Below the pieces are notes generated by a model. It was not told where the DNA came from. It did no database searches and saw nothing but the letters and a program-made list of their open reading frames with translations. A program made the position numbers and the translations under genes. 64,000 nt of DNA, from NCBI RefSeq assembly GCF_003171515.1, contig NC_089390.1, forward strand, positions 9,676,274-9,740,273. The letters are read 5' to 3'. Positions 59,036-62,006 of the stretch are shown here, piece by piece (the first letter of the stretch is position 1; each line of letters opens with the position of its first letter). The stretch is from Pyrenophora tritici-repentis (lineage: Eukaryota > Ascomycota > Dothideomycetes > Pleosporales > Pleosporaceae).

Positions 59036-62006
59036 ATGTCGTGGGCGAGTCGAGCCTGCCGCATTTGCTCACCACGCACTTTCTCACGTCTGTACAAACG
59101 TGACTTGCTTGCACTCACCATTCGACCTCTCCATACCACCACACTTTCTCTCACCCGCCAAATACCTCGCATGTCCCGAGGCAGCTCTCCGGAACTGCAA
59201 CCACCAAGCCCCAAACGGCGCAGAATTGTTGCACCAACTCAATTCATTCAGCCTTTCGGGACCATGACCTCCGAGGATGCCCCATCAGTCCAATTGGAAC
59301 TAACTGAAGTCGAGACCAAGCTAAGACAACTGTTGCTCGATGTTGCCGCTTATATCGACGAGGCCCCTTCTAATGGAGACGCTACTGCCGTGCAGGTACC
59401 AGAGCACCTTGCAAACGAAAAGATCACGCTTCGTTGGACGGGAGGATGGGTGCGAGACAAGCTCTTGAAAGTCGGCAGCAACGACATTGATGTTGCCATC
59501 AACAAGATGACCGGGGAGCACTTTGGCCTCAAGATGCAAGAGTATCTTGAAATCCCAGGCAATGCAGAGAAACACGGCCTCATTGAACCCAACGATGACC
59601 TCGATGCACGCGACAAGACCAAGAAGATTGCCCCGGGTCTGCACAAGATTGAGGCGAACCCCGAAAAGTCAAAGAACCTCGAAACAGCCACGACCAAAAT
59701 CATGGGCATTGACTTGGATCTGGTCAATCTAAGGAAAGAGACTTACAACGAAGTCTCTCGCAACCCGCAGATGGAGTTTGGTACAGCTGAAGAAGACGCC
59801 ATGCGCCGCGATGCTACCGTAAATGCCATGTTCTACAACCTCCACACATGCCAGGTTGAGGACTTTACAGGCCGTGGACATGACGACATGGCTGCCAAGA
59901 TCATTCGAACGCCGTTGGAGCCCTATCAAACATTCAAGGATGATCCCTTGCGAGTACTCCGGCTGATTCGTTTCGCCAGCCGTCTCGACTACACCATCGA
60001 GCCTGAGACTGCAAAGGCCATGGGAAACGCAGACATCCAGGATGTGCTGAAGATCAAGATCAGCCGCGAACGTGTCGGCATTGAACTCGAGAAGATGCTC
60101 AAGGGTCCTCGGCCGCGTATGGCGCTGGAGCTGATTGACCGCTTTGGCCTCTACCGGACCGTCTTTACAGACCCGACGCGCGAGTTGCCTACTGAACCCG
60201 AAACAGCCTACTTTACGCCTGCATACGACTTTGTTGAATCGGTTGTCAAGAAGAGTGGCGAGGTACCTACTGCTATTCCAGACATCCTCATGAGAAACGA
60301 GGATGAAAAGTACCTGGCTTGGGTCTGCGCTACGATGATGCCTTGGGCTGATGCGCCCACTGTACCCCATCAGAAGCCCTTGCAACGGCCATACTTTGTC
60401 GCTTACCTAGTCGCTCGTGAGGGTTTCAAGGCGCCAAACAAGATCTGTGACATTGTTGCCACATGCCTGAGCAACAGCGAGGAGATTCGTAACCTTGTCG
60501 CTCAGTGTGCAAAAGGCCTTCGACGACCTGATACCATTAACCCGACCAGCGACGCCACAGCTCGGGATACTCTGGGAATGGCCATTCGCCGGTGGGGCTC
60601 TACATGGAGAACGCAAGTCTTGTTCAATCTCGTCTACGAGGTTGTGCTAGGACGTGTATCCAAAGAAGGTAAGTTTCAATCAATGCTCCAAGACGTACAC
60701 ATGCTAACCATCTACAGAACTTCTCCGTTCCTACTCCAGCTTCCTCAATCGGGTAACTGAGCTCAAGATCCTCGAAGCAGATACCTTCAGACCTCTACTC
60801 AAAGGCACAGACCTTGCCAAGGCACTCGGTACAAAGCCTGGCCCTTGGATGAAGGACGCCCTCGACGTGGTCATGGCCTGGCAGCTACGCAATCCCGATA
60901 TCACGGACCCCGCCGCCGCTATCGAGGCCGTCAAGGCTTCTAGGGGCGAGAAAACCGATAGTGAGCTTCCCCTTCGCCTGGCATCACACTTTCTTCAGCT
61001 TACCATTCCACCTCTCTTCCCGCAGAATAAGCCCTCGTCGAATGCACTGGAAGCTTCGCGGCAACCGGCGCCGTGGAAGGAGGCGGGGAATCAATACGCG
61101 CTGGATTTGCTGGAGTGGACGATTGGCTCACTAGGCCAAAAGTCGATAGAAGCGAAATGGCACTTCCTGATGCCACCCATACTCAAGATGATTGACGATG
61201 TCGACGTGCAGTGGAAAGCAAAGGGCTGTCATATACTTGGTCTGCTTCTTGGACGGCTGCAAAAAGCAGGCGATGCATCCAAGAAAGAGTCAAACTTTCT
61301 GCAGCGCACGGGTTATCACCACATCTTTGCGGACGCTCTACTTCCCTTGTTTACATATATCCCCTCGATAACACCGGAGCAAGAATCAGTCACACTGTTC
61401 AAAGCAGTCTTGGTTGCTGTAACTTTGCTCGCTCTGCTTCTCCCTACCGATACGAATAACGGCGACAACAGAGAGCAATTCCTAGATAAAATCCTTCGTC
61501 AGGGTATACTCTCCCCCCTTGCGCACTTTCCCACTCCGTCGTCGTACCCTGAACTTGCTACGTTGATCATGTCTCACGTGCCCGTGGTACAAGGTCACAT
61601 GGGCATAGACACTGTCAAACACCTGCCCGACCTTGTACCTCTGCTCTCGGGTATCCTGCAAGAGCCCTTTGCACTCGCTCACATACGGCTGCTGGATGCC
61701 GCGCTCGGCGCTCTGCAGAGTGTGATGCTGAGTGCTTGGCCTAGGCTGCACAACTACCGCGCAAATATCATGATGGGGTTGTGCGTGCTGTGGAGTACTT
61801 GTCTGGAAGAGCAGAAGAAGCCTAGTGGTCAGGACGTCGAAGGTGTCAAAGCGCAGGTCAAGGACACGGTTGCGATGCTTGATGCGGTTATGCAAGGCCA
61901 GGAAGACGGGCTGGTGGATACGTGGAACCAGGAAAAGTGCAATGTGGTTCAGGCAGCACCGGGGTTTGAGGACTTGTTTGCAGAGTGCGGTGTCGTGGCC
62001 AAGTAA
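59036..62006 (+). CDS. cca1: CCA-adding tRNA nucleotidyltransferase fused to a TTI2-like domain
   Basis: Exons 59036-60668 and 60718-62006 sum to 974 codons, 973 residues. Residues 1-45 look like a mitochondrial presequence. Class II CCA-adding enzyme motifs follow: WTGGWVRDKLL with DIDVAI (catalytic Asp pair), RRDATVNAMFYNL, DPLRVLRLIRFASR and the SRERVGIELEKML block. The usual C-terminus GPWMKDALDVVMAWQLRNP ends near 619. Without a stop the frame continues from about 627 to 973 as a TTI2-type region: FLQLTIPPLF, PWKEAGNQYALDLLEWTI, HFLMPPILKMIDDVDVQWKAKG, LLGRLQK, FADALLPLFTYIPSITPEQES, DTVKHLPDLVPLLSGILQEPF. CCA1 matures cytosolic and mitochondrial tRNAs; TTI2 belongs to the TTT complex that stabilises PIKK kinases. 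In-frame ATGs at 59171 and 59264 could give non-mitochondrial forms. Confidence 0.9.

Follow-up and report, generated by a model that had tools for sequence, protein, structure and literature searches.

Does a single gene of Pyrenophora tritici-repentis encode both the CCA-adding enzyme (CCA1) and TTI2, and does its product work as both? The CCA-adding enzyme is essential and finishes the ends of tRNAs, and TTI2 stabilises the kinases of growth and DNA-damage signalling. An earlier note on the 64,000-nucleotide stretch analysed here (the window, to which all positions refer) read this locus as an in-frame fusion of the two, with the junction covered by a single exon and the N-terminal part of ordinary TTI2 apparently missing, and suggested that it would physically couple tRNA maturation with the stabilisation of PIKK kinases. 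The fusion itself is examined first, followed by its spread among fungi and by what the TTI2-type tail may do.

Gene structure and junction

The fusion gene lies on the forward strand (59036-60668 joined to 60718-62006) and encodes 973 residues with one intron (Table 1). The gene coordinates in the earlier note are exact, and both of its structural claims stand: the 973-residue frame carries PolyA_pol and Tti2 domains, and the content of exon 2 makes the junction independent of splicing. The intron is the sole frame-keeping GT-AG pair among donors tried from 60655 to 60690 and acceptors from 60700 to 60730. Exon 2 by itself holds the CCA1 C-terminus (GPWMKDALDVVMAWQLRNP) together with the full tail and no stop between them, and because the junction sits within this exon the link between CCA1 and TTI2 does not depend on the splice. 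At the level of the gene, the fusion is about as certain as sequence allows.

A wrong gene model was considered as the source of the fusion and ruled out, as the junction lies within a single exon and recurs in 117 more database proteins and in metagenomic ORFs.

Table 1. Features of the CCA1-TTI2 fusion gene, in window coordinates.
Feature	Residues	Position	Strand	Evidence or remark
Exon 1		59036..60668	+	open frame up to donor GTAAGT
Leader, basic, one acidic residue (Asp23)	1-45	59036..59170	+	presumably like a mitochondrial presequence
Second in-frame ATG (Met46), then KRRR (59213-59224)		59171..59263	+	KRRR presumably NLS-like
Third in-frame ATG (Met77)		59264..59266	+	directly ahead of folded CCA1 part
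PolyA_pol head domain (catalytic)	133-291	59432..59908	+	Pfam E 4.4e-21; GGWVRD, DIDVA, RRDATVNA
PolyA_pol_RNAbd	319-377	59990..60166	+	Pfam E 4.3e-8
Intron, GTAAGT...CTACAG		60669..60717	+	49 nt
Exon 2: CCA1 C-terminus, junction, entire TTI2-type tail		60718..62006	+	stop TAA 62004-62006
Conserved CCA1 C-terminal helix MKDALDVVMAWQLRNP	589-604	60849..60896	+	
Stretch between WQLRNP and first tail helix LASHFL		60897..60977	+	27 aa
Tti2 domain (PF10521)	620-864	60942..61676	+	Pfam E 5.4e-59
TTI2-type helical-repeat tail (TTI2-C equivalent)	632-973	60978..62003	+	AF2 model

The CCA-adding half

Both Pfam domains of the N-terminal half score above their cut-offs (PolyA_pol 76 bits, cut-off 23; PolyA_pol_RNAbd 33.2 bits, cut-off 22), and the sequence of this half matches the CCA-adding enzyme 9ns2 with an E value of 1.8e-65. 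A further CCA-adding enzyme, 9kma, is matched with an E value of 4.6e-20 by the full-length model (pLDDT 86, pTM 0.75) of P0001, the relative from P. teres. The motifs GGxVRD / DxD, RRD, DPLRxLR and RER, which are taken here to be catalytic, are all present. The residues of the catalytic core are invariant in 118 of 118 fused proteins (the query and 117 others), the V of GGWVRD being found in 117.

In common with eukaryotic CCA1/TRNT1 (9ns2, 9kma), the fusion has head, RNA-binding and C-terminal parts along with the catalytic motifs. It is likewise encoded by a single gene, the profile search of the genome (40.9 Mb, 41 contigs) giving one PolyA_pol (PF01743) match, at the fusion gene, and like yeast CCA1 it has a leader with several in-frame starts. 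Unlike CCA1/TRNT1, it extends some 340 residues of TTI2 type past the usual end.

The TTI2-type tail

That this extension is of TTI2 type, as claimed earlier, is borne out by its strong match to the Tti2 profile, which at 200.5 bits (cut-off 25.2) extends over positions 32-278 of the 279 in the profile; E values run from 5e-59 to 4e-76 among the five fused proteins scanned. The AF2 model of 60849-62003 is a helical solenoid (pLDDT 89.6, pTM 0.86). A profile made from seven tails matches human TTI2 (7f4u, 7ole, 9wjy) with whole-sequence E values of 2.6e-4 to 1.9e-3, the best single stretch being marginal when taken alone (i-E 0.02-0.06). The structure matches listed for the tail are generic HEAT/ARM solenoids, namely importins, CAND1, mTOR and CRM1. 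No TTI2 chain appears among the best 50 of 1120 Foldseek matches to the tail model, nor among the best 50 entries of the 954 chains aligned with VIA-align; absence from these top entries excludes nothing. Single-sequence PDB searches with stand-alone TTI2 proteins gave 23 weak SKP1 matches for P0152 and none for P0157.

The profile search of the same genome gives one Tti2 (PF10521) match, at the fusion gene, and no separate, complete TTI2 elsewhere, which leaves the fusion unrefuted. In matching most of the family model and in this single genomic match, and apparently also in its predicted helical-repeat fold, the tail is like the TTI2 of the TTT complex.

The missing N-terminal part of TTI2

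The suspected absence of the N-terminal part of TTI2 is confirmed. When the Penicillium argentinense TTI2 P0152 (584 aa), a stand-alone Pezizomycotina protein, was compared by phmmer with the fused proteins, stretches of 5 bits or less being dropped, all 118 matched it, and did so only from residue 175 onward: the first residue matched lies between 175 and 247 (median 201), and none reach the first 174. The Tti2 profile match, moreover, begins at position 26-33 in five fused proteins as against 1-4 in three stand-alone ones. P0152 possesses an N-terminal part of its own but lacks a nucleotidyltransferase domain; the fusion is the reverse. Unlike the TTI2 of TTT, therefore, the fusion is without the N-terminal 175-200 residues or so and has a CCA-adding enzyme there instead; in these alignments, CCA1 occupies the position of the first third of ordinary TTI2.

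For human TTI2, passages of PMC8278493 report that the N-terminal residues 1-193 bind TTI1, and that 194-508 alone is barely soluble and does not co-purify TTI1. The human boundary at 193 is carried over to the tail by way of the weak alignment of the seven-tail profile, because the PDB searches gave no TTI2 chain. The fused form is without the part that reportedly keeps TTI2 in the complex, with the CCA-adding enzyme in its place. As TTI2-N, the TTI1 binder in human, is absent, the tail may work differently from ordinary TTI2.

Distribution and joint inheritance

The closest database proteins are those of Pyrenophora teres and P. seminiperda, with tail identities of 85 and 78%. Searching with the full protein's tail region gave 38 matches, all fused, in a set that is no census since its length filter drops small proteins and favours fused ones. 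A full-length search from the distant relative P0038 gave 2175 matches, among the best 120 of which 118, including the partial record P0154, carry both PF01743 and PF10521; these best 120 favour fused proteins because fused ones score higher. Two metagenomic CCA1-only proteins are also found among the best 120, P0183 (596 aa) and P0234 (592 aa). Both are Dothideomycete-like CCA1 proteins ending just past the CCA1 part, and they could be unfused genes, fissions, or ORFs cut at the junction by an intron or a contig end.

Named fused records come from Macrophomina, Diplodia, Phyllosticta, Aureobasidium, Viridothelium, Lophium, Zasmidium, Pseudocercospora, Cladosporium, Patellaria, Rhizodiscina and Pseudovirgaria. 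Nine genera or species checked in the taxonomy represent nine orders of Dothideomycetes (Botryosphaeriales, Dothideales, Trypetheliales, Mytilinidiales, Mycosphaerellales, Patellariales, Aulographales, Cladosporiales and Acrospermales), and Pleosporales is the tenth. The survey of related species thus finds the fused form widespread in the class, in about ten orders. One fused protein, P0213, is recorded under Quercus suber (cork oak), probably through fungal contamination of the plant assembly.

A search with the tail alone returned 119 proteins, and an in-frame CCA1 C-terminus precedes the tail in 91 and is absent in 28. By eye, 25 of these 28 begin inside the tail, among them the annotated models P0134 and P0143. 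The other three have distinct N-termini: P0152 (Penicillium, Eurotiomycetes), P0155 (Lecanora, a 269-aa model) and P0157. As far as P0152 and P0155 can say, TTI2 would be a separate protein outside the Dothideomycetes. Judged by this distribution, the fusion is a lineage feature of the Dothideomycetes, both real and old.

The two halves were compared by trees of 60 of the 118 fused proteins, picked for spread. The CCA-half and tail trees share 36 of 57 splits, leaving 21 unshared, and among those supported at 0.95 or more (23 and 21 in the two trees) a single pair conflicts. The pairwise distances of the two halves correlate with r = 0.88, whereas 500 permutations of the labels gave at most 0.12. 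On these largely congruent trees, the CCA and TTI2 halves are inherited as one.

In-frame starts and possible localisation

Ahead of the folded CCA1 part lie three in-frame ATGs (Table 1), whose presequence-like leader, NLS-like leader and lack of leader, respectively, match the scheme of yeast CCA1, for which passages of PMC6391926 and PMC4931453 describe three isoforms, destined for mitochondria, nucleus and cytoplasm. The order of a far Met, a Met before a KRR/KKR cluster and a Met after it is found in 14 of the 120 proteins, including the query, and the last two elements alone in 26 more, including the unfused P0183 and P0234. A KRR/KKR cluster is lacking in the other 80, most of which, judged by eye, are modelled with a start close to the third Met. 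Relatives differ in which of the three ATGs their database gene models begin at. Should start usage follow the yeast pattern, the TTI2 part would travel with CCA1 to each compartment, mitochondria included.

A working TTI2 or a tail in the service of CCA1

The profile search of the genome also finds one Tel2 and one Tti1, the latter with N-terminal, middle and C-terminal domains, so that, as in TTI2-bearing TTT systems, the partners are encoded in the fusion's own genome. From the sequence evidence taken together, the fusion is probably one bifunctional protein and the working, and only, TTI2 of these fungi. The interpretation in the earlier note is partly supported: the physical fusion is confirmed, and a coupling of tRNA maturation with PIKK stabilisation is conjectural. 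Such a bifunctional protein would go back to a single event no later than the base of the Dothideomycetes, in which the gene of a CCA-adding enzyme joined a TTI2 gene that had lost its N-terminal 175-200 codons or so before the joining or lost them during it. Its product would be translated as one chain, the N-terminal half carrying out CCA addition and the helical-repeat C-terminal half serving as the cell's only TTI2, in TTT with Tel2 and Tti1. In human cells TTI2-N contacts Tti1; in the fusion that contact would be made by CCA1, or by TTI2-C alone, and the three starts would route the fusion, TTI2 part along, to mitochondria, nucleus and cytosol.

A stronger form of this proposal, in which TTT throughout the class is built with CCA1 as a structural part that docks on Tti1 instead of TTI2-N, is more doubtful and can be put forward only tentatively. 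It would bind tRNA 3'-end maturation to the maturation of TOR/ATM/ATR/Tra1 in an obligate stoichiometry, and a TTI2 domain would enter mitochondria along with the mitochondrial isoform of CCA1.

Several observations weigh against one bifunctional protein with a working TTI2, among them the two metagenomic proteins that end after the CCA1 part, three annotated gene models with starts in the CCA1 end or the tail, the marginal best stretch of the human TTI2 match and the generic solenoids in the structure listings. Human TTI2 194-508 fails to co-purify TTI1, and a tail without TTI2-N might therefore not join TTT. Furthermore, the tail is more divergent between species than the CCA half: over 38 proteins, identity to the query is 47-87% for the tail as against 73-95% for the CCA half. 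The main rival is that the tail has left TTT and now serves CCA1, as a HEAT-repeat arm that helps to handle tRNAs, to export them from the nucleus or to stabilise the enzyme, with PIKK maturation left to Tel2-Tti1, either by itself or joined by some unrecognised partner. Such a change of role would fit the loss of the TTI1-binding part in 118 of 118 fused proteins, as well as a tail fold that resembles solenoids of karyopherin, CAND1 and mTOR type, though any HEAT protein may do so; a passage of PMC6391926 also counts Cca1 among the proteins reported to take part in exporting tRNA from the yeast nucleus. It is nevertheless unlikely in view of the strength at which the Tti2 profile still matches all five fused proteins scanned, and of the retention of Tel2 and of Tti1, C-terminal domain included, in a genome where no other Tti2 was found. 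The TTT complex is, moreover, described as essential for viability in the abstract of PMC10178989.

One chain or separate products

A joint mRNA might give separate proteins, TTI2-C being freed by internal initiation or by proteolysis in the linker. Met589 (60849) is the first ATG of exon 2 usable as an internal start, and a further in-frame ATG lies at 60873 (Met597). The stretch between WQLRNP and LASHFL varies from 21 to 57 aa across the 118 proteins, as an exposed segment would, and from this variability a rigid geometry between the halves is apparently unneeded. Three annotated models, moreover, start in the CCA1 end or the tail, that of Plenodomus biglobosus (P0097) at the equivalent of Met597 and those of Coniothyrium glycines (P0134) and Didymella exigua (P0143) inside the tail; their starts may be annotation errors or mark separate products. 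Against this, Met589 belongs to a helix of CCA1 and is retained in the two unfused-looking proteins P0183 and P0234 as well, so that CCA1 alone accounts for its conservation. A product begun there would include a piece of CCA1, and no conserved cleavage motif was seen by eye in the linker alignments. Separate products thus seem improbable, and a single chain is preferred.

That TTI2 is split, with TTI2-C on CCA1 and a diverged TTI2-N supplied by a separate gene for the two to reassemble, is very improbable: such a TTI2-N may be too diverged for detection with a single Eurotiomycete query, but residues 1-209 of the Penicillium TTI2 found no match elsewhere in the genome at E <= 10, in a search with that one query and without a positive control, in which no candidate got past the first step.

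Novelty and significance

No paper describing a CCA1-TTI2 fusion was found among open-licence PMC papers. The fusion goes unmentioned in excerpts of the review PMC10178989 and of a 2026 fission-yeast tti1 paper (PMC13274921), and PMC11541241, on TOR in fungal plant pathogens, names TTT in a single place, the legend of a figure. Because precomputed Pfam annotations of public proteins already imply the domain combination, it is better called undescribed, as far as searched, than unrecorded. Database names of fused proteins include 'tRNA nucleotidyltransferase', 'poly A polymerase C-terminal region-like' and 'hypothetical protein', a warning that the first of these can conceal a species' sole TTI2 gene.

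One polypeptide holds two essential and otherwise unconnected functions, an arrangement that a large fungal class has apparently retained as it diversified. It provides a concrete case in which to study whether TOR/PIKK supply and tRNA maturation are regulated together. In addition, the role of TTI2-N becomes directly testable, nature having removed it and put an enzyme in its place.

Neighbouring gene

The divergent neighbour of the fusion gene encodes the TRAPP subunit Trs85 (PF12739; 56201-58674, reverse strand). The match is spread over two frames that overlap (1.9e-73 and 3.5e-70) and that an intron presumably joins, and about 360 bp separate the ATG of the first Trs85 ORF from that of the fusion gene.
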